Assembly: GCF_010729665.1 (NCBI RefSeq)
Contig: NZ_AP022610.1
Coordinates: 682,001 to 746,000 of the forward strand
Source: Mycolicibacterium madagascariense
GTDB taxonomy: Bacteria > Actinomycetota > Actinomycetes > Mycobacteriales > Mycobacteriaceae
Length of the DNA stretch: 64,000 nucleotides
Direction of reading: 5' to 3'
Shown: one piece after another, positions 28,315 to 61,626 of the stretch
How positions within the stretch are numbered: the first letter of the stretch is position 1
How the letters are laid out: the number at the start of each line of letters is the position of its first letter
Made by a program: the position numbers and the translations under genes
Notes under the pieces: generated by a model
The model's database searches: none
The model's input: only the letters and a program-made list of their open reading frames with translations
Told to the model about the DNA's origin: nothing

Positions 28315-28512
28315 CGAAACACAGTGGCGCGCGCTGGGATGGCGATCCGCGGGGACTGCGCCTGACGGATACGTCAAATCGTCGGCCCGATCCTGAGGAC
28401 GATTCAAACGCTACGCACAGCCAAAACCTAGCTGGCAGAACGCTGTTCGATGACGGAGCCGCGGAGTGTCTGAGCCGCCGCCCCCGGGCACGGGGTTATC
28501 GTGGTGAGCGTC

Positions 28513-30336
28513 ATGAGCGATCCGTTGGGGTTGTCGATCGGGACGACCAACCTGGTCGCGGCCGTCGTCGGCAACCCACCCGTCACGCGGCGGTCCGTGC
28601 TGCCGCTTTCCGGGCAGACGTTCCGCGGCTTCGTCGACCGCGTCGGCGACCCGGTGCCCATGATCGCGGCCGACGGCTCGGCCTACCGCGCCGACGTCCT
28701 GATGGTCGAGGCGCTCGACGCCATGATCGTCGAGGCGCGCGGGGAGGACGCCGGGGCGACGGCACAGCTCGCCGTGGCGGTCCCCGCGCACTGGAACGGG
28801 GCCACGCTGCGCTCGCTGCGCGACGCGATGCGCGCCAAGACCAGCCTCGCCCCCAACGGCGTCCCTGCGCGGCTGATCTCCGACGCGGTGGCCTCGCTGA
28901 CGGCGCTGGCGACCAATCCCGGGTTGCCGAGTGACGGCGTCGTCGCCCTGCTCGACTTCGGCGGCGGCGGAACCACCCTGACCCTCGCCGACGCGGCCGC
29001 GTCCTTCGAGCCGATCGAGACGATCCGCATGACGGAGTTCTCCGGCGACCAGATCGACCAGGCCCTCGTGACGCACGTGCTCGAGAGTCTCACCACCGAC
29101 GTCGACCCGGCGGGTACGGCGTCGGTCGCGTCGCTCACCAGACTGCGCGAGGAGTGCAGGCAGGCCAAGGAGGAACTGTCCGAGGCGCAGGCCGCCGACG
29201 TCCGCGTCGAACTGCCCGGACACCGCTCGACGGTACGCGTCACGCGCGACGACCTGGACGGTCTGCTGGCCGAGCCCCTGGCGGCCGTGCTCGCCGAACT
29301 CGATGAATCGTTGGCGCGCAACAGGATTGCCAAGGATGACGTCTCCGCGGTGGTGGCCGTGGGTGGCGGCGCACGCATCCCGCTGGTGGCCAGCACGCTG
29401 TCCGAGTCCGACCGCAGGCCCTTCGTCACGACACCGCACCCCGCGCTCGACGCCGCCGTCGGCGCCGCCCTCTTCGCGGCCTACGGCGCCGATGCCGACG
29501 CGCAGACCGGCATGGCTCCCGTCCCCCTCCCGGGCGTCGGCGAGCCGACGGCCGCCAACGTGCTCACCGCCGCCAACGCCGCGGCGCCGGACTCGTCGAC
29601 GTTCCGCGCGCTGGCGTGGTCGCAGGACGACGACACCATCGGGGATCCCGCCCCCTATACGGGCGAGGACCCGTACGCCGACCCCTATGCCGACTCCAGC
29701 ACCACCCGGGTGGTCACCCAGTACCGGCCGCGGCAGGAGGAGCCCGAACCGCACACGTGGCAGCGCGTTCCGCTGTTGATCTTCGGGGTGGCCGCGGTGA
29801 TCGCGCTGATCGCGGTCGGCGGCGTGGCGATCGCACTGACCAGCTCGACCGAGGACACCACCCCGACGCCGAAGACGGCGCCCGTCACCGCCACCTCGCC
29901 ACCCGCGCCGCGACCGACCAGCCCGCAGCCACCGCCGCCGCCGCCGACCACCGCCGCGCCGCCACCCAGCGTCGCCCCCGTGACCAGCGAAGCACCACCT
30001 CCGCCGCCGCCTCCGCCCTCGACCGAGACGGTCACCGTCGAGCGTCCGGTGACCACGACCAAGACCACCACCCAGACCACGACGACCACCACGACGCAGC
30101 CGACCACGACGACGCCGACCACCACCGAGACCACGACGACCACCGAGACCACGACGTCGAGCACGCCGACCATGACCACCAGCTACATCACAGTCCCGTT
30201 CGTGCCGGTGCCAATACCCATCCAGGTTCCGGCGACCTCGACTCCGTACCAGCCCTATCAGCCTTATCAGCCAAACTCGCCGTATCAGCCCTACCAACCC
30301 CCCGCCTACCAGCAGCCGGGCCGATATCCGTACTGA
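28513..30336 (+). CDS. Membrane-anchored Hsp70/actin-fold protein with Pro/Thr-rich tail, Rv0312-like
   Basis: A 607-aa protein in three parts. Residues 1-330 are a truncated Hsp70-like ATPase domain with phosphate-1 loop LGLSIGTTNLVAAVVG, phosphate-2 VALLDFGGGGTTLTLADA and adenosine motif VVAVGGGARIPLVAS; there is no substrate-binding domain. A single membrane helix lies at 418-445. The outer tail of about 160 residues is Pro/Thr/Ser-rich (T-T-T runs, then YQPYQP repeats) and likely glycosylated. ATG 28513 is chosen over two GTGs just upstream; TATCGT at 28497 suggests a nearly leaderless mRNA. It is a paralogue of the gene at 53850-55712. The role is unknown; an envelope-linked ATP-binding scaffold is an inference. 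Confidence 0.82.
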   Translation: MSDPLGLSIGTTNLVAAVVGNPPVTRRSVLPLSGQTFRGFVDRVGDPVPMIAADGSAYRADVLMVEALDAMIVEARGEDAGATAQLAVAVPAHWNGATLRSLRDAMRAKTSLAPNGVPARLISDAVASLTALATNPGLPSDGVVALLDFGGGGTTLTLADAAASFEPIETIRMTEFSGDQIDQALVTHVLESLTTDVDPAGTASVASLTRLREECRQAKEELSEAQAADVRVELPGHRSTVRVTRDDLDGLLAEPLAAVLAELDESLARNRIAKDDVSAVVAVGGGARIPLVASTLSESDRRPFVTTPHPALDAAVGAALFAAYGADADAQTGMAPVPLPGVGEPTAANVLTAANAAAPDSSTFRALAWSQDDDTIGDPAPYTGEDPYADPYADSSTTRVVTQYRPRQEEPEPHTWQRVPLLIFGVAAVIALIAVGGVAIALTSSTEDTTPTPKTAPVTATSPPAPRPTSPQPPPPPPTTAAPPPSVAPVTSEAPPPPPPPPSTETVTVERPVTTTKTTTQTTTTTTTQPTTTTPTTTETTTTTETTTSSTPTMTTSYITVPFVPVPIPIQVPATSTPYQPYQPYQPNSPYQPYQPPAYQQPGRYPY

Positions 30337-37264: not shown

Positions 37265-37924
37265 GTGGCGCGTAACGACGGTCCCGGTGGACCCCCAGAC
37301 GACCCGTACTACTCCGACAGCGAGCCGACGCAGTACGGACGCCAGCCACGCAGCGATCCGCAGGCCTACAGCGAACCCACCCAGTACGCGAACTACGGCG
37401 GCTACGACCCGCAGCCCGGCTACGGACAGCCCGGCTATGGACAACCCGGCTATGGACAGCAGCCGCCGCCCAAGACCCCCTGGTACCGCACCCCGGCGGG
37501 ACTGGTCAGCCTCGGCGCCATCGCCGTCATCCTCATCGCCGCGATCGTCTACGGCGTGGTCTCGCTGACCGGTGGCAACGGCTCCAGTTCGACGTCGTCG
37601 ACGTCCAGCACGTCGACTACGTCCAGCACCGCCGCGCCGTCGACGTCGGCGGGCAACTCCGAGGCGCCGGCACCCGGTGGTAGCGGCGGGGGCCAGGAGA
37701 CCGTGACCCAGACCGAGCAGCCGAGCTCGGCCACGGATTCGCCGACGACCACCACGACCACCGACAGCCCGACCACCACCACGACGACCACCGAGCCCAG
37801 CACCAGCACCACGGTGTCGACGAGCACCAGCACGAGCACCGTGACGCAGACGGTGACGCAGACCCGGGATCGGCAGCGGCAGTTCCCCGGTGGCGGCGGC
37901 GGCAACGGGCAGGGCCAGGGCTAG
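37265..37924 (+). CDS. Single-pass membrane protein with Tyr/Gly repeats and Thr/Ser-rich tail
   Basis: A 219-aa protein. Residues 1-75 are hydrophilic and contain a 15-bp tandem repeat giving [14 protein letters not shown]. One membrane helix ([20 protein letters not shown]) is at about 80-100. Residues 105-219 are Thr/Ser/Gly-rich, probably outside the membrane and glycosylated, ending in a Gly/Gln-rich tail. Leaderless GTG start. It is 23 bp upstream of rmlA and likely co-transcribed with it. The architecture resembles other mycobacterial DUF-type anchor proteins with no assigned function; similar Thr-rich tails are found in the products at 28513, 53850 and 61192. Confidence 0.7.
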
Positions 37925-47921: not shown

Positions 47922-50900
47922 TTACCGCTTGCCGGGCCTGCGCACCCCGGGAGCGATGCCGAGGCCCTTCACCGGGGGTTCCGGTGCGGACGGCGTCGAT
48001 GCCCCGTTGGCCGACTCACCGTTGGCGGACCCACCGTTGGTGGACGGCGCGGGTGCCTCGGCCACCGGCTCAGCCGACGTCGCAGAAGCCTCAGCCGACG
48101 GCGCGGACGCCTCGGCCGACGGCGCGCCGGTCGTCTCCGGTTGTGCATCAACGGGTTTCGCGGCGGCCTTCTTGCTGCCGGGTCGCTTGGCGATGGCGAG
48201 CCCCTTCACGGGCGGCTCCGGTGCCGACTCCGTCGCGGGCGGGGTCTGAAGGCCGAGGTCCGAGTCGGCCGAGTCCGCGGGATCGGGTCCGGCGGGCACG
48301 TCGTCGGGCGCGACGTTGGCGGGCTGCACGACGCTGGCGTCGCCCTCGTGCGGCGGTGCCGTGTCGGCGGCGGGCGCGGCGGCCTTCTTGCTGCCGGGTC
48401 GCTTGGCGATGCCGAGTCCCTTGACCGGCGGCTCGGCCTTGGCCGGTGCCTCGGCGGGGGCTGCGGATGCGGCCGGTGCCTCGGTGGATGATGCCTCGAC
48501 GGGTGCCGTCTCGGCGGTCGGTGCGGCAGCCTTCTTACTGCCGGGTCGCTTGGCGATGCCGAGCCCCTTCACCGGCGGCTCCGCCGCGGCCGGTGCCTCG
48601 GCGGGGGCCGCAGTGGCGGCGGGGGCAGCCTCGGCGGTGCCGTTCGACGCCGCGGGGGCCGACTTCTTGCCACCCGGCTTGCGGGCGACGGTGAGTCCGC
48701 CCTTCGCCGGCGCTGCTGCGGCGGCGGGCGCCTCGGCGGGCGCGGTGTCCACCGTGGCGGCGGGCTGGGCGGCTTCCTCCGCCTTCACGGGCTCGGCCTC
48801 GGCGGGGGCAGTCGCCAGCTTCGCCGCGGCGGCCTCGGCGGCGGCGCCCTTGGCGGGTAACGTCACCGAGTCCTTGTCCAGCGCTGCGAGCAGGAGCTGC
48901 GCGACGTCGAGGACCTCGGCCTCCTTGCCCATCTCCTCGGCACGGTCACCGACGCCGTCGGTCATCATCACCCGGCAGAACGGGCAGCCCGTCGCGATCT
49001 TGGAGGCGTCGGTGTTCAGCGCCTCCTCGGCGCGCTCGTGGTTGACGCGCTTGCCGATGTGCTCTTCCATCCACATCCGCGCGCCACCGGCGCCACAGCA
49101 CAGGCCGCGGTCGGCGTGCCTCGGCATCTCGGTGAGCGTCGCGCCCGAGGCGCCGATCAACTCGCGAGGCGCCTCGTACTCCTTGTTGTGCCTGCCCAGG
49201 AAGCACGGGTCGTGGTAGGTCACGTCCTGGCTGACGGGGCTGACCGGGACCAGCTTCTTCTCGCGGACCAGGCGGTTGAGCAACTGCGTGTGGTGCACGA
49301 CGGTGTAGTTGCTACCGAGTTGCGGATATTCGCGGCCGATGGTGTTGAAGCAGTGCGGGCACGTCGCGATGATCTTGCGGTCGACGGTCTCGACGCCCTC
49401 GAAGACCCCGTTGATGGTCTCGACGTTCTGCGCGGCCAGCTGCTGGAACAGGAACTCGTTGCCGGCGCGTCGGGCCGAGTCGCCGGTGCAGGTCTCACCG
49501 GAGCCGAGGACGAGGAACTTGACCCCGGCGGTCGCGAGCAGCTCGGCGACGGCCTTGGTCGTCTTCTTGGCCCGATCTTCAAGCGCGCCAGCGCATCCCA
49601 CCCAGAACAGGTACTCATAACCGTCGAACGAGTCGACGTCCTCGCCGTAGACCGGAACGTCGAAGTCGACTTCGTCGATCCACTTGGTGCGCTCCTTGGC
49701 GCTCTGTCCCCAGGGGTTGCCGTTGCGCTCGAGGTTCTTGAAGAGACCGTTGAGCTCGGCGGGGAACTCCGACTCCACCATCACCTGGTAGCGGCGCATG
49801 TCGACGATGTGGTCGATGTGCTCGATGTCGACGGGGCACTGCTCGACGCAGGCGCCGCAGTTCGTGCAGGACCACAGCACGTCGGGGTCGATGACGCCGC
49901 CCTGCTCCAGGGTGCCGACGAGCGGGCGGGTGGCCTGCTCGGGGCCCGAACCGAGCACGCGTTCGAAGCCGGACTCGGGCACGGCGTGGGCCTCCGAGTG
50001 CCCTTCACCGCGGACCTCTTCACCGAGGCCGCCCTCGGCGGTGTTCTCCAGCGGCGTCTCCGCGCTACCGAGGATGTAGGGCGCCTTGGCGAAGAGGTGA
50101 TCGCGCAGGTTCATGATTACGAGCTTGGGAGACAACGGCTTTCCGGTGTTCCACGCCGGGCACTGCGACTGGCAGCGGCCACACTCGGTACACGTGGTGA
50201 GGTCGAGGTAGCCCTTCCAGGTGAAGTCCTCGATCTTGCCGCGTCCGAGCACGGCGTCCTCGGCGGGATCCTCGAAGTCGATGTATTCGCCCTTGTACTC
50301 CATGGGAAGCAGCGGGCCAAGGGCATTCGGCAGCCGCTTGAACGTGACGTTGACCGGTGCGAGGCCGATGTGCAGGTGCTTGGAGTGCAACACGATCAGC
50401 AGGAAGATCAACGCAATCGCGATGTGCGCCAACAGGGCGACGGTCTCGATCCACTCGTTGGCGGTGTGCCCGAAGACCTGCATCCAGGAGCCCATGCCGT
50501 GGGAGAAGAACGCCCCCCAGCCGTAGGGCAGGTTGCCGTTGGCCACCGCCGCACCGCGGAAGAACGCGTAGCTGAAGATGACCAGGAAGATCATGAAGAG
50601 GATGAGCCACGCGCCACCGGTGTGCGAACCGTAGAAGCGGGAGTCGCGGCCGTATTCCTTGGGCTCCGAACGCAACCGGATGATCGAGAAGGTGATGATG
50701 CCGAGCAGCACGGCGAGGGCGAAGAAGTCCTGCAGGAAGCCGAGCGCCCCCCAGCGCCCGACGAGCGGGATGGCGAACTTCGGGTCGAACAGCACCCCGA
50801 AGGCCTCGAGGTAGACGGTGATGAGGATGAAGAAGCCCCACATGGTGAAGAAGTGGGCGATGCCGGGCAGCGACCACTTCAGCAGCCGGGTTTGCCCGAA

Positions 50901-51083
50901 CACCTCGGTGAACTGCGTGGTGATGCGCCTCTTGAGATCGTCCTTGCGAGCGCCCTCGTCGATCGTCTTCTGACCCGAGCTGATCAGTTTGACCAGAAAC
51001 AGCACGCGTTTGGCAGCGAAGGCCATGACGACTGCGGTGAGCAAGAGGCCAAGGGTCAGCCTGATCAGAGTCTGCGTGTCCAC
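47922..51083 (-). CDS. etfD: Membrane-bound ETF oxidoreductase EtfD (Rv0338c-like), long repeat tail
   Basis: A 1053-aa protein. Residues 1-235 hold five or six membrane helices. A HdrC-like part follows with two [4Fe-4S] motifs, CTECGRCQSQCP near 296 and CTNCGACVEQCP near 404, then CCG domains with CPHCFNTIGREYP near 571 and HDPCFLGRHN/CCGAGGARMW near 620-661. From 745 the tail is Ala/Pro/Glu-rich with repeats of VKGLGIAKRPGSKKAAA. H37Rv Rv0338c (882 aa) was identified as EtfD, which passes electrons from ETF in beta-oxidation to menaquinone and is essential on fatty acids. The GTG follows GGGAGG. The tail is about 170 residues longer than in H37Rv. Confidence 0.92.
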   Translation of the reverse strand: MDTQTLIRLTLGLLLTAVVMAFAAKRVLFLVKLISSGQKTIDEGARKDDLKRRITTQFTEVFGQTRLLKWSLPGIAHFFTMWGFFILITVYLEAFGVLFDPKFAIPLVGRWGALGFLQDFFALAVLLGIITFSIIRLRSEPKEYGRDSRFYGSHTGGAWLILFMIFLVIFSYAFFRGAAVANGNLPYGWGAFFSHGMGSWMQVFGHTANEWIETVALLAHIAIALIFLLIVLHSKHLHIGLAPVNVTFKRLPNALGPLLPMEYKGEYIDFEDPAEDAVLGRGKIEDFTWKGYLDLTTCTECGRCQSQCPAWNTGKPLSPKLVIMNLRDHLFAKAPYILGSAETPLENTAEGGLGEEVRGEGHSEAHAVPESGFERVLGSGPEQATRPLVGTLEQGGVIDPDVLWSCTNCGACVEQCPVDIEHIDHIVDMRRYQVMVESEFPAELNGLFKNLERNGNPWGQSAKERTKWIDEVDFDVPVYGEDVDSFDGYEYLFWVGCAGALEDRAKKTTKAVAELLATAGVKFLVLGSGETCTGDSARRAGNEFLFQQLAAQNVETINGVFEGVETVDRKIIATCPHCFNTIGREYPQLGSNYTVVHHTQLLNRLVREKKLVPVSPVSQDVTYHDPCFLGRHNKEYEAPRELIGASGATLTEMPRHADRGLCCGAGGARMWMEEHIGKRVNHERAEEALNTDASKIATGCPFCRVMMTDGVGDRAEEMGKEAEVLDVAQLLLAALDKDSVTLPAKGAAAEAAAAKLATAPAEAEPVKAEEAAQPAATVDTAPAEAPAAAAAPAKGGLTVARKPGGKKSAPAASNGTAEAAPAATAAPAEAPAAAEPPVKGLGIAKRPGSKKAAAPTAETAPVEASSTEAPAASAAPAEAPAKAEPPVKGLGIAKRPGSKKAAAPAADTAPPHEGDASVVQPANVAPDDVPAGPDPADSADSDLGLQTPPATESAPEPPVKGLAIAKRPGSKKAAAKPVDAQPETTGAPSAEASAPSAEASATSAEPVAEAPAPSTNGGSANGESANGASTPSAPEPPVKGLGIAPGVRRPGKR

Positions 51084-51363: not shown

Positions 51364-53853
51364 TCACCCCGGGGGAGTCTCGAGAATCGCCCGCAGCATC
51401 GAGATCAGCTCCGATCGCGACTCCGCGCCGAGCCGGCGTCGAATGCGTGCCACGTGGTGCTCCACGGTCTTCGCTGAAATGAACAGCTGGCTGCCGATGT
51501 CGCGGTAGGGCAGACCCTGCAGCAGTAATTCGGCAACCTCGCGCTCGCGGTCGGACAGGCGCGCGGTCGACGCCGACGGACGCGCCTGCGCGGTGGCGGC
51601 CGGTGCCGGGAACGAGGTGGCCGACGTGGCCGACGGGGTCGCGCTGACGTCGACGGGGTCGGCGCTGGCGAACTTGAGGTCGCGGGCCAGCTGCAGCATG
51701 GCGCCCGAGGTCCGGCCGTCGGGGGTCTGCAGTGCCGCCTGACTGGCCAGCCGGGTGGCGTCCCAGGTCAGCCCGAACTGGACGAGCGCACGCGCGGCCG
51801 CGGCCACCTCGTCGGCGTCGACGTGGTTGGCGAGCACCCGCAGCCACGTGCGGCCCGCGTTGGCGAGCGCCCTGGCGAACGGACTGTGCGCGGCGGCCGC
51901 CGTCAGCGCCTGGCCGTGCGGCGCCACCGCGCTCGGTGCGCTCGACAGGATGCCCGCGTGGACCCCCGCCCAGTGCAGCGGGATCGCCCACAGCGACGGA
52001 TCACCCAGTGCGGCAAGCAGATTGAAGGCCTCGTCGAGGGCGGGCCGGACGAGGTCGACCTGGCCCAGCCGCGCGGCGGCCACCCACAGCTCGCCGAGCG
52101 GAAGCAGGGCGTAGAGGTCGACCGAGTACTCGGTGAGCACCTCCATCGCGGCGTGCCAGTGCTTGTGGACCGCGCCGCTGTCGCCGGCCCGTCGGGCGAT
52201 CGCCGTCTGCAGGGCGGCCGCCCACAGGGCGTCGCGGCGGTGCAGCGGCGCACCGGATGCCGCGGCGACGTCGGCGGCCGCCGCGGTCAACTGGCCGTCG
52301 AGCATGCGCACCCAGCCGTGCAGCAGCGCGTGCCGTGCAGCGGTGAAACCCAGGTCCGGGCCGGTGTCGTGGACCGCCCGGCCCAGGACGCTGCGGGCGC
52401 GCACGGAGTCGCCACCGTGCAGGGCCACCAGCGCAACGAGCGCCGGGGCGCTGTCCGGCGTGACGATGGCCGCCGCCTGTGCCGACGTCGACTGCGCGAG
52501 CCGGGCGACGGCGGCGGGGTAGGTGCCGTCGACGGTCATCAGCAACCCGTCGGCGAGACCGCGGGCGGCACGCGCGCTCGACGTCGGAGGACCGGAGGCG
52601 TCGACGGCCAGCGCGGCCCGTGCCGTCGGGGCGTCCCCGACCCCGAGCGCCGCGACGACGGCGGCGGCTCCCACGACGGCATCGGGGTAGGCCCCCAGCC
52701 AGCGGAACAGCTCGGCCGCCTGCACGGCACTCCCGTCGTGCATGGCCACGCTCGCCGCGATGCGCACCGCGGCCGCTCGTTCGGCGGCCAGCTCCGAGCC
52801 CAGCAGCTGGTCGGCGAGCCGTCCGGCCGTCGCGCAGTCGCCGGTCAGCGCGAGGGCGTCGGCGAGGGAGGAGCCGGCCCCGTCGGCGCCCATCTCCCCG
52901 GCGGCCCGGTAGAGACGGGCGGCCAGCGCGGGACGGGTGCGGTGGCGGGCCGCCAGGTCGGCGAGCGCGTCGGCGAGTCGCGCGTCGCGCAGGCCGTGCT
53001 CGGCCAGCTGCAGGGCGAGGTCCATCGACAGCGTCGACCTGTCCCATTGCGTGTGCAGCAGCGCCGTTTCGAGGCGATGGTGGCGCGCGGCCCCGGCGAG
53101 CTGCGCGACGCCGCGGTGCAGCGCGGCCGCGAACGTCGCACTGTGTCCGGGGGCGATCAAGCCGCTGGCCCTGGCGACGTCGACCAACCGCTGCGCCTCG
53201 CCGTGGTCGACGTCGAGCGCCGCGGCGACGTCGTCGGGGCCGAGATCCTGGCTCAGCGAGGTCACCAGCAGCGTGTCGAGCACGGGCTCCTCGACCCGTC
53301 GCAGGCGCTCGACGAGGGCGACGCGCGTGGCCGCCTCGATCCCGTCGGGCCCGGACGCCAGGCCCGACACGGCGGCGTCGACCAGGAACGGCAGGCCGGC
53401 GGTGGCCACCAGCACCGCGTGGAGCGTCTCGGCGGGTGGCGCGGCGCCGAGGGCGTCCAGCGCGCGCCGGTGCACGTCGGCGGCGGTGAGCGGGCCGAGC
53501 GTGATGGGCGGCGCTTCTCGGGCCAGGGCCGCCCGCAACGAGGTGAGCGAGGGATCGTGCAGTCGCGGTTCGGCGGCGATCACGACGGTTCTGGCCGGGT
53601 CCGCGACCAGCTCCGTCAACCGATCGACGTCCGGCGCGGGCAGTAGGTGGGCGTCGTCGACGACGACCGCCGCATCGGGGGGATCCTCACTCCGCGGCGG
53701 GCGCGCGAGCACGGTGCGTCCCGCTGCGCGCAGCGCCGTCCTGACCTCGACGAGCAGCGCGGTCTTTCCCGTGCCGACACCACCTGACACCAGCATCTTG
53801 GCGGGCTCGGCCGGTGCCGTCGACCACGCCGTCGCTGCGTCGGGGGTGATCAC
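51364..53853 (-). CDS. iniR: IniR-type STAND ATPase / LuxR transcriptional regulator (Rv0339c-like)
   Basis: An 829-aa MalT-like regulator. Walker A SGGVGTGKTALLV is at 23-35, Walker B AVVVDDAHLLPAPDVDRL near 70, then a NACHT-type winged region and a long helical repeat array. The C-terminal LuxR helix-turn-helix (LSDREREVAELLLQGLPYRD, then SAKTVEHHVARIRRRLGA) is at about 760-825. In M. tuberculosis, IniR (Rv0339c, 832 aa) activates iniBAC under cell-wall stress in response to trehalose (published). GTG 53853 overlaps the stop of the Hsp70-like gene (GTGA). The longer open frame upstream is a shadow of that gene. Confidence 0.9.
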   Translation of the reverse strand: MITPDAATAWSTAPAEPAKMLVSGGVGTGKTALLVEVRTALRAAGRTVLARPPRSEDPPDAAVVVDDAHLLPAPDVDRLTELVADPARTVVIAAEPRLHDPSLTSLRAALAREAPPITLGPLTAADVHRRALDALGAAPPAETLHAVLVATAGLPFLVDAAVSGLASGPDGIEAATRVALVERLRRVEEPVLDTLLVTSLSQDLGPDDVAAALDVDHGEAQRLVDVARASGLIAPGHSATFAAALHRGVAQLAGAARHHRLETALLHTQWDRSTLSMDLALQLAEHGLRDARLADALADLAARHRTRPALAARLYRAAGEMGADGAGSSLADALALTGDCATAGRLADQLLGSELAAERAAAVRIAASVAMHDGSAVQAAELFRWLGAYPDAVVGAAAVVAALGVGDAPTARAALAVDASGPPTSSARAARGLADGLLMTVDGTYPAAVARLAQSTSAQAAAIVTPDSAPALVALVALHGGDSVRARSVLGRAVHDTGPDLGFTAARHALLHGWVRMLDGQLTAAAADVAAASGAPLHRRDALWAAALQTAIARRAGDSGAVHKHWHAAMEVLTEYSVDLYALLPLGELWVAAARLGQVDLVRPALDEAFNLLAALGDPSLWAIPLHWAGVHAGILSSAPSAVAPHGQALTAAAAHSPFARALANAGRTWLRVLANHVDADEVAAAARALVQFGLTWDATRLASQAALQTPDGRTSGAMLQLARDLKFASADPVDVSATPSATSATSFPAPAATAQARPSASTARLSDREREVAELLLQGLPYRDIGSQLFISAKTVEHHVARIRRRLGAESRSELISMLRAILETPPG

Positions 53854-55712
53854 GAATTCGGCGGCACCACCGACGTGGGCGCGGACGCCTGCGAGCTGGG
53901 CGGCCGGGTCACCGGTGCCTCCGTCGTGGTGACGGGCGGTCTCGTCGTGGTGACGGGAGGAGCGGTCGTGGTGGTCGGCCGTGTGGTGGTGGGTGGCGTC
54001 GTCGTCGTGGGTGGCGTCGTCGTCGTGGGCGGTGTCGTGGTGGTGGTGGTCGTCGTGGTGGTGGTCGTGGTGGTCGTCGTGGTGGTCGACGACGTCGTGC
54101 TGGACGTCGTGTCGCTCGTCGACTCGGTGGTGCTCGAACCCGACGTCGGGGACTGGGACGCCGACGACGAACTCTGCGGCCCATTGCTGGCGGAGGACGG
54201 CGTCTCGGTCTTGGTGGACAGGCTGGTGGTCACCAGGCCGTTGGCTCCGGTCGAGGAGATCGTGACGACCTCGGTCACCGTGCCGCTGTTGGTGGAGTTG
54301 CCCGTCAGCGTCACGGCGAGGCCGCCGATCGCCAGGAGTGCGGCCGCGGCGGCGGCGCCGAACAGGATGGGCGGGCGTTTGTACCAGGGCAGCACCGCCG
54401 CCTCGTCGGGGAACTCGTCCTCCTCGTCGTGGGCGAAGGCCATCTCGGGCCGCGCGCCGGAGTACTCGGACTGGTACTCCCCGCCGGCGTAGGGGAGCGG
54501 TTCGCCCGACGGAGCGTCGTCGTCCTGGGACCACGCCAGGGCGCCGGCCGCCTCGGTGGGCGGGGCCTCGACGGGAGGCGCACCGGCCACCCATCCCATG
54601 GTGGGCGCCAAGCCCGTCGGCGCATCGGCGACGGGGGCCAGACCCGTCGGAGCCAAGCCGGTGCGGGCGTCGTCGTAGCCGCCGAGCGCGACGACGGCGG
54701 CACCCGCGGCGATCGTCAGCGCGGGCACCGGTGCCGTCACGACGGGCACCCGGAACCGTTCGGAGAGTCGCTGCGTCACCAGGGGGATCGCGGCGCCGCC
54801 GCCGACGGTGGCCACCGCGGACACGCTCGCCGGCGCAATGCCGTAGCGCTGCACGGCTTCCGACACCGCCGACAGCAGACCGGCCAGCGGTTGCTCGATG
54901 AGCCGTTCGAGTTCCTGCCGGGTGATCCGCACGTCGGAGGAGTAGCCCGGCAATTGGGCCGAGAGGACGGTGGAGGTGTCCGACGACAGGCGTTCCTTCG
55001 CGTCGCGGCACTCGGCCCGCAGCCGGGTCAGCGAGCCGACCGCGGCCGTGCTCGCGGTATCGGCCGGGTTGGCGTCCGCGATGCCCGCGACGACGTGGTT
55101 CAGCAGGGCCTGGTCGACCAGGTCGCCGGAGAAGTCCGGATAGCGCGTCGTGCTGCCGATGACGGCCAGGCCGGCGGCGGCATCGGCCAGGGTGATGCTC
55201 GTGCCCCCGCCGCCGACGTCGCAGAGCACGACGACGCCGGCGTCGGGCAGGCCCGGCGACGACCGCAGCCCGGCGAGCGCGGCGACGGAGTCGGGCACCA
55301 GCGTGGCGGGAATCCCGCCTGGGCTCAGAATTGGCTTGGCGCGCAGGGCATTTCGCAGTGCGCCGACGACTCCCGGACCCCAGTGGGACGGCACCGCGAT
55401 CGTGACGGGGGCGCCCCCACCCACGATGCGGGCCATCACGTCGAGGGCCTCGACGAGGACGGTCTCGCCGCGGTGCGACGACCCGTCCGCGGCGACCAGG
55501 GGCACCGGGTCGCCGACGCGTTCGACGAACCCCGCCAAGACCAGGCCGGGCTGGTTCGGTCCGGGGAAGGTCCCGACCTCGGGCGCGCGGTCGGGGTAGA
55601 CCGTCAGCACCGAGCGCCGGGTGACGGGCGCAGCCCCGCCGCGGGTGGCCACCAGGTTGGTGGTGCCGACGGACATCCCGAGTGGTTCAGTCGTGGCCAG
55701 TGGTTCGGTCAT
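53850..55712 (-). CDS. Membrane-anchored Hsp70/actin-fold protein coupled to iniR, poly-Thr tail
   Basis: A 620-aa paralogue of the 28513 product. The ATPase-like domain at 1-340 has LGMSVGTTNLVATRGG (phosphate 1), VVVLCDVGGGGTSITLADAA (phosphate 2) and VATVGGGAAIPLVTQRL (adenosine). The substrate-binding half of Hsp70 is missing. A membrane helix lies at about 445-467. The outer tail of about 150 residues is Ser/Thr-rich with an unbroken Thr run and TTTPPTTTTPP repeats, probably O-mannosylated. ATG 55712. The stop overlaps the iniR start. H37Rv has no such gene directly upstream of Rv0339c as I recall, so this looks like an added partner in the IniR unit. Confidence 0.85.
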   Translation of the reverse strand: MTEPLATTEPLGMSVGTTNLVATRGGAAPVTRRSVLTVYPDRAPEVGTFPGPNQPGLVLAGFVERVGDPVPLVAADGSSHRGETVLVEALDVMARIVGGGAPVTIAVPSHWGPGVVGALRNALRAKPILSPGGIPATLVPDSVAALAGLRSSPGLPDAGVVVLCDVGGGGTSITLADAAAGLAVIGSTTRYPDFSGDLVDQALLNHVVAGIADANPADTASTAAVGSLTRLRAECRDAKERLSSDTSTVLSAQLPGYSSDVRITRQELERLIEQPLAGLLSAVSEAVQRYGIAPASVSAVATVGGGAAIPLVTQRLSERFRVPVVTAPVPALTIAAGAAVVALGGYDDARTGLAPTGLAPVADAPTGLAPTMGWVAGAPPVEAPPTEAAGALAWSQDDDAPSGEPLPYAGGEYQSEYSGARPEMAFAHDEEDEFPDEAAVLPWYKRPPILFGAAAAAALLAIGGLAVTLTGNSTNSGTVTEVVTISSTGANGLVTTSLSTKTETPSSASNGPQSSSSASQSPTSGSSTTESTSDTTSSTTSSTTTTTTTTTTTTTTTTTTPPTTTTPPTTTTPPTTTRPTTTTAPPVTTTRPPVTTTEAPVTRPPSSQASAPTSVVPPNS

Positions 55713-55788
55713 GAACGGCTCATCCCCTGCCGGGTCGGAGAAACAGCCCTCACCTTAACGGCTGCTGTACGCGAAACGGGGTGTCATC

Positions 55789-55827
55789 CCCCTAGTGGTG
55801 TCGAGCCCCTAATGGCCGATCCCCTAA
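55789..55827. promoter_or_regulatory. Three CCCCTA boxes upstream of the IniB-domain gene
   Basis: CCCCTAG (55789), CCCCTAA (55806) and CCCCTAA (55821) lie in direct orientation, within the 217-bp divergent region between the Hsp70-like/iniR unit and the IniB-domain gene. The last box is 55 bp upstream of a TAGCAT -10 (55882-55887). The direct-repeat layout is like MalT boxes. Together with the matching set upstream of iniB these are the best candidate IniR sites. Confidence 0.6.
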
Positions 55828-55929
55828 CGCCCTGTTGGCACGGGTGGCTTCACCACCGATCCCAGCGACGCGATACGCCGATAGCATTCGGTGCAGACAG
55901 TCGGCGCAACGCCGGGAAGGGGGCGGCTC

Positions 55930-56478
55930 GTGGCGAACTCGCTGTTGGACTTCGTGATGTCGCTGGTGCGCGATCCCGACGCCGCTGCCCAGTATGCGGC
56001 CAATCCCGCGCAGGCCATCGCCGACGCCCACCTGACCGACGTGACGAGTGCGGACGTCAACCACCTCATCCCGGTGGTGGCGGAATCGATGTCGACGGTC
56101 GTGCCGTCCGCGGCGGCGGGCAGCGCGCTCGACGACGCGCACAACGTCTGGGCGAGCGGCGCGGCGACGGCGGCCTTCGACGCGTTCGACGACCATCTGC
56201 CCCTGCGCGGCGCCGACGTCGTCGCAGCTCACGTGCCCACGGTCGCGACCGTGATCCAGCCGCCCGCGGACGCCGCGCCGACCGTCGTCGACCATGGTTT
56301 CGATGCCTTCGACGACCTGCGCGAGGTCAGTGCGGTGAGTCCGTCGGACCACGCGCTGGCCTACGACGTGCCCGTGATCGACGATGGGCACGTCACCGAT
56401 GCCGGCCCGGTGGACGACGTGCACCACGGCGTCGTCGACGACCATCCGCAGGACCCCGGTTTCGACATCTTCGCGTGA
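55930..56478 (+). CDS. IniB N-terminal domain protein (Rv0340-like)
   Basis: A 182-aa acidic protein. Residues 1-65 form the IniB N-terminal domain (NSLLDFVMSLVRDPDAAAQY, then the VTSADVNHLIPVVAES helix), the same helical module as in IniB. The rest is Asp/Val/His-rich and probably extended. There is no signal peptide. GTG 55930 follows GGGAAGGGGG. It has its own promoter and box set, and a terminator (56500-56530) separates it from iniB. It is the counterpart of Rv0340 (179 aa), which is co-regulated with iniBAC. Confidence 0.85.
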   Translation: MANSLLDFVMSLVRDPDAAAQYAANPAQAIADAHLTDVTSADVNHLIPVVAESMSTVVPSAAAGSALDDAHNVWASGAATAAFDAFDDHLPLRGADVVAAHVPTVATVIQPPADAAPTVVDHGFDAFDDLREVSAVSPSDHALAYDVPVIDDGHVTDAGPVDDVHHGVVDDHPQDPGFDIFA

Positions 56479-56564: not shown

Positions 56565-56592
56565 CCCCTAACCCCCTAACGGACGCCCCTAG
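56565..56592. promoter_or_regulatory. Three CCCCTA boxes upstream of iniB
   Basis: CCCCTAA (56565), CCCCTAA (56573) and CCCCTAG (56586) are direct repeats, followed by weaker copies (ATCCCTCAA at 56596, GATCCCCAC at 56606). A TAACGT -10-like element is at 56659-56664 with no recognisable -35, as expected for an activator-dependent promoter. The last strong box is 121 bp before the iniB ATG; the equivalent distance upstream of the IniB-domain gene is 109 bp. Confidence 0.6.
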
Positions 56593-56706: not shown

Positions 56707-57747
56707 ATGACGAACCTCATCGACTACATCCTCGACCTGTTCCGCGACCCGGGCGTGGCGGCCACGTTCGTCAGGGACCCCGACGGGGCCCTGCGCGACG
56801 CCGGCCTGCCGAACGTGAGCGCAGCTCAGCTGCAGGCCGTCGCCGCCAGCGCCGCCCCCGCCGGCGTGTTCCTCGGCGACGGCGACCCGGTGTACGGATT
56901 GCAGACGGCAGTCGCGAACTACCACAGCATCCCGGCCGCGTTCTCGCCGCAGACGGCCTTCTCCCCGCAGACCGACTTCGCCAGCAACAACGCCACCGAG
57001 GTCGCCAGCAACAACGACGTCATGAGCCCGAACCAGTCGGCCGGGGCCAACGCCCAGAACGGCGCGTTCAACCTCGGCTTCGGCGACATCACGTTCGGCG
57101 ACAAGACGAGCAACACCGCCACCAACGGCGGCGTCGTGAACACCGGCAGCGCCGGCCACATCGACACCACCAGCGTCAACGGTGACGGAAACGTCGTCGG
57201 CCACGACAACAACGCCAACACCGGGGTCATCTCCGCGGGTAGCCACTCGCCGATCACCGTGGGCGAGGGCAACCAGACCCACGTGAGCGACAGCTCGCAG
57301 CACTCCGGCGGCGACATCATCGATGGCAACCAAGGCACCGTCATCAAGGACAACGACATGTCCGGCGGGCACGGCGGCGGCGCGAGCGCGAGCGGCGGCA
57401 GCAGCCTCCTCGGCATCGGCACCGGTGGCAACGACGCCCACGCGGGCAGCGGCGGTCAGGGTGGCTCGATCATCGTGACCGACAACGGCAACCACTCGAA
57501 CACGTCCACGACGGCCGTCGGTGGCAACCAGACCACGGTCGGTCACGACCTGGGCAGTGGCAACACCTCGACCGTCGACTCCTCCACCCACACCGCCTCG
57601 ACGGTGCACGAGGACAACACGTTCGAGCAGGACAACTCCACCCACACCGACAGCTCGGTGCACAGCGACACGTCGTTCTCGCAGGAGAACTCGCTGCACC
57701 AGTCGGTCGACACCCACGTCCAGCCTGACACGCACATCGGTTTCTGA
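56707..57747 (+). CDS. iniB: IniB, isoniazid-inducible protein
   Basis: A 346-aa protein. The N-terminal IniB module is at 1-60 (MTNLIDYILDLFRDPGVAAT, then SAAQLQAVAASAAPAG). From 75 on it is an Asn/Gly/Ser/Thr-rich low-complexity chain, with a 60-residue tail repeating Thr/Ser-His-Thr/Ser units (STHTASTVHEDNT, STHTDSSVHSD). H37Rv IniB is longer (479 aa) and more Gly/Ala-rich. There is no signal peptide. Transcription of iniBAC is induced by isoniazid, ethambutol and other wall inhibitors in other mycobacteria. iniA follows after 74 bp. Confidence 0.88.
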   Translation: MTNLIDYILDLFRDPGVAATFVRDPDGALRDAGLPNVSAAQLQAVAASAAPAGVFLGDGDPVYGLQTAVANYHSIPAAFSPQTAFSPQTDFASNNATEVASNNDVMSPNQSAGANAQNGAFNLGFGDITFGDKTSNTATNGGVVNTGSAGHIDTTSVNGDGNVVGHDNNANTGVISAGSHSPITVGEGNQTHVSDSSQHSGGDIIDGNQGTVIKDNDMSGGHGGGASASGGSSLLGIGTGGNDAHAGSGGQGGSIIVTDNGNHSNTSTTAVGGNQTTVGHDLGSGNTSTVDSSTHTASTVHEDNTFEQDNSTHTDSSVHSDTSFSQENSLHQSVDTHVQPDTHIGF

Positions 57748-57821
57748 CGCACCGCGACTGGCGGGGCTCCTTCCGGCGCCCCGCCGGTCCGCGCGTCTAC
57801 CGTGAGGTGAGGAGAAATCAC

Positions 57822-59663
57822 ATGACGCCCCCGAACGACCCACGGCCGGTCACGGTCATCGTCGAGCTGATCGACCACACCGTCAGGATCGCCGGGGACT
57901 ACGACCGCGGCGATCTGGTCGAGCGGCTGTCGAGGGCGAAGCAGCGCATCGGTGACCCGCAGATCCGGGTGGTCATCGCGGGCCAGCTCAAGCAGGGCAA
58001 GAGCCAGCTGCTCAATTCCCTGCTCAACGTGCCGGTCGCGCGCGTGGGGGACGACGAGACCACGACGTTGGCGACGGTGGTGTCCTACGGCGAGCAGCCG
58101 TCGGCGCGGCTCATCGTGGCCCGCGGCGACGGTGCCGAGCCGGAGGCGGTCGAGATCCCGATCGCCGAGGTCCGCAACGATCTGCGCCGCGCGCCGCAGG
58201 CCGGCGGTCGCGAGGTGCTGCGCGTCGAGGTCACCGCGCCCAGTCCGCTGCTGCGCAACGGGCTGGCATTCGTCGACACCCCCGGCGTCGGCGGGCACGG
58301 CCAGCCGCACCTGTCCGCGACCCTCGGCCTGCTGCCGGACGCCGACGCGATGCTCATGGTCACCGACGCGAGCCAGGAATTCACCGAGCCGGAGCTGACG
58401 TTCCTGCGCCAGGCCATCGAAATCTGCCCGCTGGCAACGGTTCTCGTCACGAAGACCGATCTGTACCCGCACTGGCGCGAGATCGTGGCCGCGGACGAGG
58501 CGCACCTGCGTCGCGCCGGCATCGACGTGCCGGTCGTCCCGGTCTCGTCGGTCCTGCGCAGCCACGCCATCCAGATGAACGACCAGGAGCTCAACGCAGA
58601 GTCCAACTTTCCGGCCATCGTCGCCTTCCTCGGGGACCGGGTGCTGGGCCGCGAGAACGACCGGATCCAGGATGAGGTGCTCGCCGAAGTGCGTTCGGCC
58701 GCAGAGCATCTCACGCTCACCATCGAGACCGAACTGGCGTCCATCAATGACCCCGAGGCCCGGGACGCCCTCAACGCCGAGCTCGAGCGGCGCAAGCAGG
58801 AGGCCCAGGATGCGTTGCAGCACACGGCGCTGTGGCAGCAGGTGCTCAACGACGGCATCGCCGACCTGACCGCCGACGTCGACCACGACATGCGCGCCCG
58901 GTTCCGTGCGATCACCCAGCACACCGAGCGCCGCATCGATGGCTGCGATCCGACGCAGCACTGGGCCGAAATCGGCACCGAGCTGGAGAATGCGGTCGCC
59001 ACGGCCGTCGGGGACAACTTCGTGTGGGCCTACCGCCGCGCCGAGGCCCTGGCGCAGGAGGTGGGCCGCACCTTCGCCGAGGCCGGGCTCGACGCCGTCG
59101 AGATGCCGCAGCTGAATGCCCGCGAGATGGGTGCGGGCTTCGGTGACATGAAGTCCCTCGGTCGGCTCGAGGCCAACCCGATTGGCAAGGGGCACAAGGT
59201 CGTCACCGGGATGCGCGGCTCCTACGGCGGCGTGCTGATGTTCGGCATGCTCACCTCGTTCGCGGGCCTCGGCATGTTCAACCCGCTGTCGCTCGGCGCG
59301 GGTCTGGTCCTCGGCCGCAAGGCCTATCGGGAGGACATGGAGAACCGCATGCTGCGGGTGCGCAACGAGGCCAAGACCAACGTGCGGCGATTCGTCGACG
59401 ACGTGTCCTTCGTCGTCGGCAAGGAGTCTCGCGACCGGCTCAAGGGCGTACAGCGCCAACTGCGCGACCACTACCGCGACATCGCGAATCAGACGACCCG
59501 CTCGCTCAACGAATCCCTGCAGGCGTCGCTCAACGCCGCCAAGATGGAGATGGACGAGCGCGACGCCAGGGTGCGCGAGCTGCAACGTCGCCTCGACATC
59601 CTGCGGCAGGTCACCGAGCACGCCGTCAAGATGTCAGCGCGATCGGAAACCGTCACCGCGTAG
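57822..59663 (+). CDS. iniA: IniA, dynamin-like GTPase
   Basis: A 613-aa bacterial dynamin-like protein. G1 is VVIAGQLKQGKSQLLNSLLN near residue 50, G2 the Thr run in GDDETTTLATVV, G3 FVDTPGVGGHG and G4 VLVTKTDLYPHW. A helical stalk follows, with a hydrophobic membrane-contact segment MRGSYGGVLMFGMLTSFAGL and GMFNPLSLGAGLVLG near 470-500, and a coiled-coil end. The published structure of M. smegmatis IniA shows GTP-dependent membrane fission. ATG 57822 follows GGAGA. H37Rv IniA has 640 aa. Confidence 0.94.
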   Translation: MTPPNDPRPVTVIVELIDHTVRIAGDYDRGDLVERLSRAKQRIGDPQIRVVIAGQLKQGKSQLLNSLLNVPVARVGDDETTTLATVVSYGEQPSARLIVARGDGAEPEAVEIPIAEVRNDLRRAPQAGGREVLRVEVTAPSPLLRNGLAFVDTPGVGGHGQPHLSATLGLLPDADAMLMVTDASQEFTEPELTFLRQAIEICPLATVLVTKTDLYPHWREIVAADEAHLRRAGIDVPVVPVSSVLRSHAIQMNDQELNAESNFPAIVAFLGDRVLGRENDRIQDEVLAEVRSAAEHLTLTIETELASINDPEARDALNAELERRKQEAQDALQHTALWQQVLNDGIADLTADVDHDMRARFRAITQHTERRIDGCDPTQHWAEIGTELENAVATAVGDNFVWAYRRAEALAQEVGRTFAEAGLDAVEMPQLNAREMGAGFGDMKSLGRLEANPIGKGHKVVTGMRGSYGGVLMFGMLTSFAGLGMFNPLSLGAGLVLGRKAYREDMENRMLRVRNEAKTNVRRFVDDVSFVVGKESRDRLKGVQRQLRDHYRDIANQTTRSLNESLQASLNAAKMEMDERDARVRELQRRLDILRQVTEHAVKMSARSETVTA

Positions 59664-59702: not shown

Positions 59703-61190
59703 ATGAGCACGAGCGACCGGGTGCGGGCAATCCTCGGCGGCACCGTCGCCGCCTACCGCAGCGACCCGGTCTACGCCCAGCGTCAGGACGTCCTGCACGA
59801 GCTCGACCGGATCGGCCGACAACTCAACCAGCCCATCCGCATCGCGCTGGCGGGCACGCTCAAGGCGGGCAAGTCCACGCTGGTCAACGCGCTGGTCGGG
59901 GAGGACATCGCGCCGACCGACGCCACCGAGGCCACCCGCATCGTGACGTGGTTCCGCAACGGCGCCACCCCGCGGGTGACGGCCAACCACCGCGGCGGGC
60001 GAAGGACCAACGTCCCCATCACCCGCGCGCACGGCGGACTCACCTTCGACTTCGCCAGCCTCGACCCGCAGGACGTGCTCGATCTCGACGTCGAATGGCC
60101 CGCAGCCGAACTCGCCGACGCCACGATCATCGACACCCCCGGCACCTCGTCGCTGAACCGCGACGTCTCCGAGCGCACGCTGCGCCTGCTGGTGCCCGAG
60201 GACGGGGTGCCCCGCGTCGACGCGGTGGTGTTCCTGCTGCGCACGCTCAACGCCGCCGACATCGCCCTGCTCGAGCAGATCGGCACGCTGGTCGGCGGGG
60301 CGTCGGGTGCGCTCGGCGTCATCGGGGTCGCGTCGCGCGCCGACGAGATCGGGGCGGGCCGCATCGATGCGATGTTGTCCGCCAAGGACGTGGCGGCGCG
60401 GTTCACCGCCGAGATGGACAGGACGGGCATCTGCCAGGCGGTGGTGCCGGTGTCCGGACTGCTCGCGCTGACGGCGCGCACGCTGCGGCAGAGCGAGTTC
60501 GTCGCGCTGGAGAAACTCGCTGCCGTCGACGCGGCCGACCTCGCCAAGGCCATGCTGAGCGTCGACCGCTTCGTGCGGGAGGATGCGGCGCTGCCCGTGG
60601 ACGCCGCCACCAGATCGGCTCTGCTGGAACGGTTCGGCATGTTCGGCATCCGCATCTCGATCGCGGTGCTGCGGGCCGGCGTCGGGGACTCGGTGGGTCT
60701 GGCCGACGAACTCCTCGAGCGCAGTGGGCTGGTCGCCCTGCGCGACGTCATCGATCAGCAGTTCGCGCAGCGGTCCGATCTGCTGAAGGCCCACACCGCG
60801 CTGCTGTCGCTGCGACGGGTCGTGGAGGCCAACCCCATCTACGCGACGCCCTTCATCGTCGCCGACATCGACCCGCTGCTCGCCGACACCCACGCGTTCG
60901 AAGAACTCCGGCTGCTGAGTCAATTGCGTTCGCGCCCAACGACGTTGACCGAGGACGAGATGGCGTCGCTGAGGCGCATCATCGGGGGGTCGGGCACCGA
61001 TGCGGCCAGCCGGCTCGGCTTGCAGCCCGACGCGCCGTACGACGGCCCGCGCGCGGCGTTCTCGGCCGCCCAGCGCTGGCGACGCCGCGCGGACCATCCG
61101 CTCAACGATCCGTTCACCACCAGGGCGTGCCGGGCGGCCGTGCGCAGTGCCGAGGCGATGGTGGCCGACTTCGCCGCGCAGGGCCGCTGA
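59703..61190 (+). CDS. iniC: IniC, dynamin-like GTPase
   Basis: A 495-aa GTPase of the IniA/IniC pair. G1 is IALAGTLKAGKSTLVNALVG near residue 50, G2 TDATEATRIV, G3 IIDTPGTSSLNRD and a G4-like VGVASRADEIGAG. The helical C-terminal half lacks a clear membrane helix. ATG 59703 is 39 bp after the iniA stop; TAAGCT at 59686 could give a weak internal promoter. H37Rv IniC has 493 aa. Its 3' end is 1 bp from the convergent Thr-rich membrane protein. Confidence 0.93.
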   Translation: MSTSDRVRAILGGTVAAYRSDPVYAQRQDVLHELDRIGRQLNQPIRIALAGTLKAGKSTLVNALVGEDIAPTDATEATRIVTWFRNGATPRVTANHRGGRRTNVPITRAHGGLTFDFASLDPQDVLDLDVEWPAAELADATIIDTPGTSSLNRDVSERTLRLLVPEDGVPRVDAVVFLLRTLNAADIALLEQIGTLVGGASGALGVIGVASRADEIGAGRIDAMLSAKDVAARFTAEMDRTGICQAVVPVSGLLALTARTLRQSEFVALEKLAAVDAADLAKAMLSVDRFVREDAALPVDAATRSALLERFGMFGIRISIAVLRAGVGDSVGLADELLERSGLVALRDVIDQQFAQRSDLLKAHTALLSLRRVVEANPIYATPFIVADIDPLLADTHAFEELRLLSQLRSRPTTLTEDEMASLRRIIGGSGTDAASRLGLQPDAPYDGPRAAFSAAQRWRRRADHPLNDPFTTRACRAAVRSAEAMVADFAAQGR

Positions 61191-61191
61191 G

Positions 61192-61626
61192 CTACGGATG
61201 CGGGTACAGGGTGCGAGTCTCGTTGTACCGCGGCCGGGTACGGCCGTCGTCGTAGGTCGTCGGCGACTTGGTGTGCGGCAGGTTGGACGGGTTGAACGAC
61301 GTCGTCGTGTCCGTGCTCGGTGAGGTCCCCGACGTCGTCGTGGCGCTGGTGTCGCCGGGGTTGATGTCGGAGGTCATCGGCGGGCTGGTGCTGGTGATCG
61401 TCTCGGTGCTCGTGGCGGTCGTCGTGGTCGTGGTGCCCGAGTCACTGGACTGCACGGAGTACTGCGGCGTCGGTGGCGGCGGCGCGTCCGACCCGCTCGT
61501 CACGTAGGAGATGGCGAACCACAGCAGCGCGATGACCGCGAGTGCGCCCGCGCTGGCGCCGACGACGGTCGAGGTGCGTTCGTGCCATGCGGGTTCGCCG
61601 GTCCCCGAGTCGTCGTCACCCGCCAC
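61192..61626 (-). CDS. Single-pass membrane protein with Thr-rich tail (at the lpqJ position)
   Basis: A 144-aa protein: 20 hydrophilic residues, one helix (TVVGASAGALAVIALLWFAI), then an outer Thr/Ser/Pro-rich tail of about 100 residues. H37Rv has the lipoprotein gene lpqJ (Rv0344c) at this place in the same orientation, but there is no lipobox Cys here; instead the N-terminus acts as an anchor. GTG 61626 start. It may be a replaced or diverged form. Function unknown. Its tail resembles those of the products at 37265 and 53850. Confidence 0.7.
   Translation of the reverse strand: MAGDDDSGTGEPAWHERTSTVVGASAGALAVIALLWFAISYVTSGSDAPPPPTPQYSVQSSDSGTTTTTTATSTETITSTSPPMTSDINPGDTSATTTSGTSPSTDTTTSFNPSNLPHTKSPTTYDDGRTRPRYNETRTLYPHP

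Follow-up and report, generated by a model that had tools for sequence, protein, structure and literature searches.

An Hsp70-like membrane protein encoded directly upstream of iniR, a predicted pseudo-ATPase, looks like part of the mycobacterial Ini response

The window analyzed here is a stretch of 64,000 nucleotides from Mycolicibacterium madagascariense (contig NZ_AP022610.1, positions 682,001 to 746,000). It contains iniR, a gene for an Hsp70-like membrane protein (referred to below as hsp), and, on the far side of hsp from iniR, the genes iniB*, iniB, iniA, and iniC:

51364..53853, (-) strand: iniR, 829 aa, GTG start (NCBIfam NF038181)
53850..55712, (-) strand: hsp, Hsp70-like membrane protein, 620 aa; open reading frame ending in TGA
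55891..56478, (+) strand: iniB*, IniB-related protein of the Rv0340 family, start codon uncertain (NF038176, 191.3 bits, cut-off 100)
56707..57747, (+) strand: iniB, IniB N-terminal domain (NF038175)
57807..59663, (+) strand: iniA, Dynamin_N
59703..61190, (+) strand: iniC, Dynamin_N

The original prediction, made from the sequence of the window, was that iniR is coupled to the Hsp70-like gene through a shared GTGA stop/start, and both the identity of iniR and the overlap held up. The protein scored 1233.9 bits against NF038181 (cut-off 750) and has a LuxR-type DNA-binding domain at its C-terminus (PF00196, 60 bits, residues 765-819), and bases 53850-53853 (GTGA) are common to the GTG start of iniR and the TGA stop of hsp. 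Beside iniR is an Fe-S reductase gene (47922-51083), which we take to be EtfD/Rv0338c from gene order; the Fe-S domains found in its product agree.

The product of hsp has an Hsp70-type nucleotide-binding domain (NBD), a single predicted membrane helix, and a Thr-rich tail, as the original prediction had described it:

54675..55697, (-) strand: Hsp70-type NBD, residues about 6-346, with the equivalents of DnaK D8, K70, E171, and T199 replaced
54369..54674, (-) strand: disordered cytoplasmic linker, residues 347-448, with the motif LAWS at 392-395
54312..54368, (-) strand: predicted membrane helix, hydrophobic segment 449-467
53853..54311, (-) strand: Thr/Pro/Ser-rich outer tail, residues 468-620

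The fold is supported by a Pfam match (PF00012, HSP70, 70.6 bits, residues 157-342) and by Foldseek, in which all 50 of the PDB matches listed for the domain were Hsp70-type proteins, for example M. tuberculosis DnaK (4rtf; TM-score 0.77 by target length, 21% identity). The AlphaFold2 model, built from a 35-row alignment, has a confident domain at residues about 6-346, disorder at 347-448, and a helix at 450-460 inside the hydrophobic segment; the tail (72% T/P/S) was modelled with low confidence. The mycobacterial protein has no substrate-binding domain: the PF00012 match stops at residue 342 and residues 347-448 are modelled as disordered.

The Hsp70-type domain is predicted to be a pseudo-ATPase. 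The catalytic and nucleotide-related roles of D8, K70, E171, T199, and other conserved residues are known from work on Hsp70, and the equivalents of all four named residues are replaced in the window protein. We aligned 115 mycobacterial copies. The equivalent of D8 was replaced in all 114 alignable copies (112 Ser, 1 Thr, 1 Ala; 1 gap), as was that of K70 (112 Val, 2 Ile; 1 gap), and the equivalents of E171 and T199 were Asp and Gly, respectively, in 115/115. D194, the adenine-side Lys, and the VGG glycines were retained in every copy. The protein therefore resembles Hsp70/DnaK in its NBD fold and in keeping D194, the adenine-side Lys, and the VGG loop, but differs in the four replaced residues, in lacking a substrate-binding domain, and in having a membrane helix and a Thr-rich tail. 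Judging from these residues, the domain probably still binds nucleotide and has lost the residues for hydrolysis. The earlier description of the protein as a membrane ATPase is not borne out.

The hsp-iniR adjacency is real, old, and goes beyond local synteny. We sampled 128 genomes of the genus and found IniR above the NF038181 cut-off in 86. Genes outside the window were called with a crude caller; as it overlooked the iniR of the window, IniR was searched for separately in such calls. We took 80 of the 86 iniR regions, leaving out six that lay close to a contig end or were divided between contigs, and added one M. palustre locus from a scan of genome contigs with IniR. Of these 81 loci, 79 were scorable (L044, at a contig end, and L114, a fragment, were excluded). 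An Hsp gene was immediately upstream of iniR in 58/79 (class A). The suspicion that some species have no such gene upstream of iniR was right: it was absent there in the other 21 (class B). In the IniR tree, class B, including M. palustre, formed one clade with a single change of state, and the earliest branches were class A, although the outgroup branches are long. As the classes differ by one event in the tree, 58 versus 21 does not amount to 79 independent tests, and counts of species in general are not independent.

What is conserved between hsp and iniR is the tight spacing and not the GTGA overlap itself. Between the Hsp stop codon and the closest start that iniR could use, the gap was -4 to +18 bp in 54 of the 58 class A loci; it was wider in L111-L113 (74, 74, and 98 bp), and L056, in which the Hsp frame runs on, has no gap figure. 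An exact overlap of -4 was found in 7/58, and the same spacing was found in 2/27 crude same-strand neighbour pairs of the window. Because tight spacing of genes on the same strand is common in bacteria, the weight rests on the conservation of the coupling.

The promoter regions of hsp, iniB*, and iniB share CCCCTA(A) repeats, which in the window are arranged with candidate -10 elements as follows:

55752..55757, (-) strand: candidate -10 element TAAGGT of hsp-iniR, 30 bp from the nearest box
55789..55827, (+) strand: three CCCCTA boxes between hsp and iniB* (55789, 55806, 55821)
55882..55887, (+) strand: candidate -10 element TAGCAT of iniB*, 54 bp from the proximal box
56565..56592, (+) strand: three CCCCTA boxes before iniB (56565, 56573, 56586)

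Across the mycobacterial loci, these repeats were the commonest spaced words before iniB (73/75 regions) and iniB* (75/79), compared with at most 4 in shuffled sequences. Two boxes or more were found before iniB in 54/55 class A and 19/20 class B loci, before iniB* in 58/58 and 21/21, and upstream of hsp in 58/58 class A loci, making the boxes a promoter element that hsp has in common with iniB and iniB*. When CCCC[TC]A was allowed, the longest chain had exactly three boxes in 58/58 class A loci and exactly two in 21/21 class B loci; the extra box of class A is the one nearest to hsp, and the difference is one evolutionary event. The spacing to a candidate -10 element was also conserved. At iniB*, TANNNT was 54 bp away from the proximal box in 49/58 class A and 18/21 class B loci, and on the hsp side its distance was 28-30 bp in 43/58 class A loci. 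On the iniR side of class B loci, its commonest distance was 27 bp (6/19).

The CCCCTAA boxes are candidate IniR binding sites. Our literature search found no published IniR motif. ChIP-seq in M. tuberculosis indicated IniR binding just upstream of iniBAC (Boot 2017, PMC5760070), a promoter region that is also bound by MtrA (PMC2945938) and HpoR (PMC13413693). In the M. madagascariense genome, CCCCTAN{2,9}CCCCTA had six matches, three of them in the two ini promoters; since the other three were spaced differently and the reversed control pattern had four matches, we do not claim a wider IniR regulon in this genome.

The Hsp70-like protein belongs to a multigene family that extends beyond iniR. 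The NBD was present in 122/128 genomes of the genus (E<=1e-20), with three or four matches in 95 of the 122. The window itself has a second member:

28501..30336, (+) strand: Hsp70-like paralogue, about 46% identity

From gene order, this paralogue may be the counterpart of Rv0312; a YkuD (L,D-transpeptidase) gene (27179-27844, (+) strand) is nearby. The linker motif LAWS was found in 111/114 mycobacterial copies of all paralogue types (the exceptions were L056 and two copies cut by contig ends), and we rejected it as an IniR-specific docking motif for that reason. The linker pattern TG[LM]AP, considered as a phospho-Thr/FHA site, remains an idea only, as its loose form was found in 92/111 linkers and in 53/111 shuffled ones.

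Hsp genes persist in genomes that have no IniR match over the NF038181 cut-off (among them G005, 84% complete, which carries iniA). We examined 14 loci with 16 Hsp copies from such genomes. In 8/14 (L117-L120, L143, L149, L152, L154), the Hsp gene immediately precedes the Fe-S reductase homologue, in the slot that is occupied by hsp-iniR in the window, indicating that Hsp does not depend on IniR. In L116, three crude ORFs lie between the two genes. A same-direction box pair was found in 0/16 of these Hsp copies. (Copy L144, with one box in each direction, was dropped.)

Additional Hsp genes are located near ini genes in both classes. One or two extra copies are behind iniR in 11 class A loci (12 copies; L036, L040-L042, L045, L047, L049-L051, L057, L065). 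A CCCCTA box pair preceded 10/12 of these, with a -10 element at 53-55 bp in 10/10, an iniB*-like promoter with which the second Hsp gene looks like an IniR target. In eight class B loci that we inspected (L121-L123, L145-L148, L005), an Hsp copy lies beyond iniC and faces it, and L124 and L125 have a different Hsp70-like type right after iniC on the same strand. In genome G065, an additional cluster of iniB and iniA is accompanied by a divergent Hsp gene (L136, G065:C48); we found no IniR in that stretch and no CCCCTA box within 300 bp of that Hsp gene.

The linkage of Hsp and Ini genes is also found in other families of actinobacteria. We used a class-wide sample of 246 genomes, 14 of the genus and 232 others, with an iniA threshold of E<=1e-15. 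Among the 232, iniA was present in 28, the Hsp NBD in 26, and both in 20, where 3.1 would be expected (Fisher 1.6e-17, without correction for relatedness). At their closest, iniA and Hsp were no more than 10 kb apart in 12 of these 20 genomes and no more than 15 kb apart in 15; the remaining five have the two genes on separate contigs. Genes for both IniR-like and Hsp-like proteins were found at 8/20 non-genus iniA loci (19 genomes): L158 and L159 (family f37), L160-L164 (f13), and L165 (f8). All of these but L159 had a called iniC (7/8), and in L162 the IniR-like gene is truncated at a contig end. Five of the eight IniR-like proteins were scored; their best family was NF038181, with 255-446 bits, below the cut-off of 750. 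In the two Microbacteriaceae-type loci, the Hsp gene is directly before the IniR-like gene, at 4 bp in L159 (Microbacterium terrae) and 21 bp in L158 (first-start calls). No IniR was called in L166 and L167 (f14), where Hsp lies upstream of iniA-iniC, on their strand and separated from them by a single crude ORF. In L157, the distance between Hsp and iniA is 3 kb, and no IniR-like gene was called in the vicinity. No other gene from a crude 60-gene set of the window (which lacks iniR) matched in L158-L167. The remaining eight loci (L156, L168-L174) had no such Hsp gene near iniA, and L156 had only a true DnaK.

Some of the copies outside the genus keep the catalytic residues. D8, K70, E171, and T199 were all kept in nine copies of three other families (f13, f8, f14). 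The two f37 copies keep D8 only and L157 keeps E171 only. Mycobacterial Hsp copies formed one clade in the tree (100/100); the branching order outside it is uncertain, with long branches, and for that reason we do not claim that the catalytic residues were lost only once outside the genus.

Minor observations concern the same set of loci. The Hsp-like protein of M. terrae (L159, 2004-3239) is only 411 aa, and we found no hydrophobic segment in it. L175 (10907-12970) encodes a fusion of an Hsp70 domain with WD40 after distant iniC/iniA relatives. No box pair was found by pattern in the 20 loci outside the genus; by eye, and uncounted, the Hsp/iniA-side intergenic regions of L160, L161, and L164 have C-rich repeats like CCCCTAA.

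The gene next to iniR has been mentioned before. The available part of Boot 2017 (PMC5760070) describes the same IniR, iniB*, iniB, iniA, and iniC in the same order and gives one sentence to a 'dnaK-like gene' beside iniR, in M. smegmatis only and with no function; that part has no role, residue analysis, box motif, or spread for the gene. Beyond it, we found nothing in the openly licensed literature that links IniR with Hsp70 or a dnaK-like gene. The replaced catalytic residues, the linkage in other families, and the CCCCTAA repeats shared among promoters are new here.

The M. smegmatis counterpart of hsp should be MSMEG_0692, judging from locus order and description and not from sequence. 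Its tag is between MSMEG_0690 (EtfD, PMC13083937) and MSMEG_0695 (IniA, PMC2945938), and MSMEG_0691 is a putative transcriptional regulator (PMC8088520). It is described as a 'conserved hypothetical proline and threonine-rich protein' with one TMH and ATP binding and is listed with Rv0312 (PMC11898655). In that study, 25 proteins, FhaA itself among them, were exclusive to FhaA-crosslinked complexes, and MSMEG_0692 was one of these; the FhaA bait was overexpressed, and the accessible portion of the paper draws no link to IniR. Bacterial dynamin pairs are described in PMC6104087 and PMC6715688, the available parts of which do not mention an Hsp70-like partner; the module considered here likewise has a dynamin pair, IniA/IniC.

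Based on these results, the hsp-iniR pair is a real, old module and the Hsp70-like protein looks like part of what the Ini response controls, traveling with that response in other actinobacteria. We favour an explanation, to which we give about an even chance, in which the protein is an IniR-controlled envelope scaffold that works with the IniA/IniC dynamins. The Hsp70-like gene would be an old, portable part of an envelope-stress module composed of the IniR activator, the dynamin-like GTPases IniA/IniC, and the Hsp70-like protein, and would have acquired its pseudo-ATPase state in mycobacteria, with the Hsp70-type domain in the cytoplasm, one helix to the membrane, and the Thr-rich tail outside. 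It would be translated with IniR, and because its promoter region carries putative IniR-type boxes, hsp-iniR would probably be under IniR's own control, along with iniB* and iniBAC. Most likely, the protein would be occupied by nucleotide and act as a scaffold at the membrane, bringing IniA/IniC and complexes for growth or lipid transport to the damaged envelope, and co-translation would keep activator and scaffold in step.

An IniR-controlled envelope component is suggested by the spread of the family, its persistence without IniR, the iniB*-like promoter of the second Hsp genes, and the FhaA data. The scaffold is also supported by the coupling in 58/79 loci, the linkage in 8/20 loci of other families, the co-occurrence of iniA and Hsp, the box chains of three versus two, and the lack of a box pair in the 16 copies without IniR. 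Several points argue against it. The boxes are candidate sites in a region that MtrA and HpoR also bind, and those in the hsp-iniB* intergenic region are oriented towards iniB* and might act on that gene alone. The helix-less Hsp-like protein before IniR in M. terrae is not what a membrane scaffold predicts, and iniR itself is not drug-induced in M. tuberculosis (Boot 2017, PMC5760070), which is class B by its published layout. In addition, classes A and B reflect one event, MSMEG_0692 was matched by locus order, and FhaA was overexpressed.

MalT is a STAND activator with direct-repeat boxes that is restrained by MalK, an ABC ATPase. By analogy, the membrane Hsp70-like protein might bind IniR, hold it inactive, and release it on envelope damage, the putative partner here being a pseudo-Hsp70 rather than an ABC ATPase. 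MalT was in fact discussed as a model for IniR in Boot 2017 (PMC5760070). The tight coupling in 54/58 class A loci and the position directly before iniR in L159 and L158 would fit such a two-part sensor, as would the residues: the mycobacterial and L158/L159 copies have lost them, and the nine f13, f8, and f14 copies, none directly before iniR, keep them. Catalytic loss in copies before iniR, together with the helix-less M. terrae protein, fits a direct partner of IniR. Nonetheless, we consider the sensor unlikely, and the original proposal of one dedicated to IniR was not supported. The gene keeps its slot without IniR in 8/14 loci and is missing next to iniR in 21/79, most genomes have three or four members, LAWS is common to all paralogue types, the L157 copy is degenerate and has no called IniR-like gene close to it, and second Hsp genes resemble IniR targets. 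Furthermore, the trehalose response of IniR is reported for M. marinum and M. tuberculosis, for which the available text mentions no adjacent dnaK-like copy (PMC5760070). We infer that the envelope scaffold is the better explanation.

It is improbable that hsp and iniR are functionally unlinked neighbours, with a general envelope role for the protein and an operon formed by history. The family is genus-wide (122/128 genomes) and the Fe-S reductase gene beside iniR was equally constant in the loci inspected, but the same genes are together in other families without any other gene of the crude window set, and on the hsp side both the boxes and their distance to the candidate -10 element are conserved. 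A working membrane chaperone, that is, an Hsp70 refolding envelope proteins under stress, is very unlikely for the mycobacterial protein, which has no substrate-binding domain matched or modelled and has replaced catalytic residues. All four residues are intact in the f13, f8, and f14 copies at ini loci (9/9), and an ancestor may have worked in this way.

These results bear on a response whose iniBAC genes serve as a standard reporter of cell-wall drug action in mycobacteria. A pseudo-Hsp70 accompanying IniR and the dynamins gives this system a concrete component that had been missing, and its presumed M. smegmatis counterpart is already among the envelope proteins associated with FhaA. From the candidate IniR box, hsp-iniR would be expected to regulate itself in class A species and not in the other clade. 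A broader idea, which we put forward tentatively and think more likely to be wrong than right, is an actinobacterial membrane-repair module in which the Hsp70-type protein, dead where it is co-translated with the STAND activator, would serve the dynamin pair as a membrane scaffold and IniR as a feedback partner. Mycobacteria would show one instance of this module in their drug-induced Ini response, and the module would be independent of mycolic acids because a version is present in Microbacterium terrae.

Two genes for small proteins were also seen in the window, at 61192-61626 ((-) strand) and 37265-37924 ((+) strand). Both products have one hydrophobic segment and, by eye, a Ser/Thr-rich tail, without a Pfam match, and relatives of the protein encoded at 37265-37924 adjoin Hsp genes in L117, L118, and L120.
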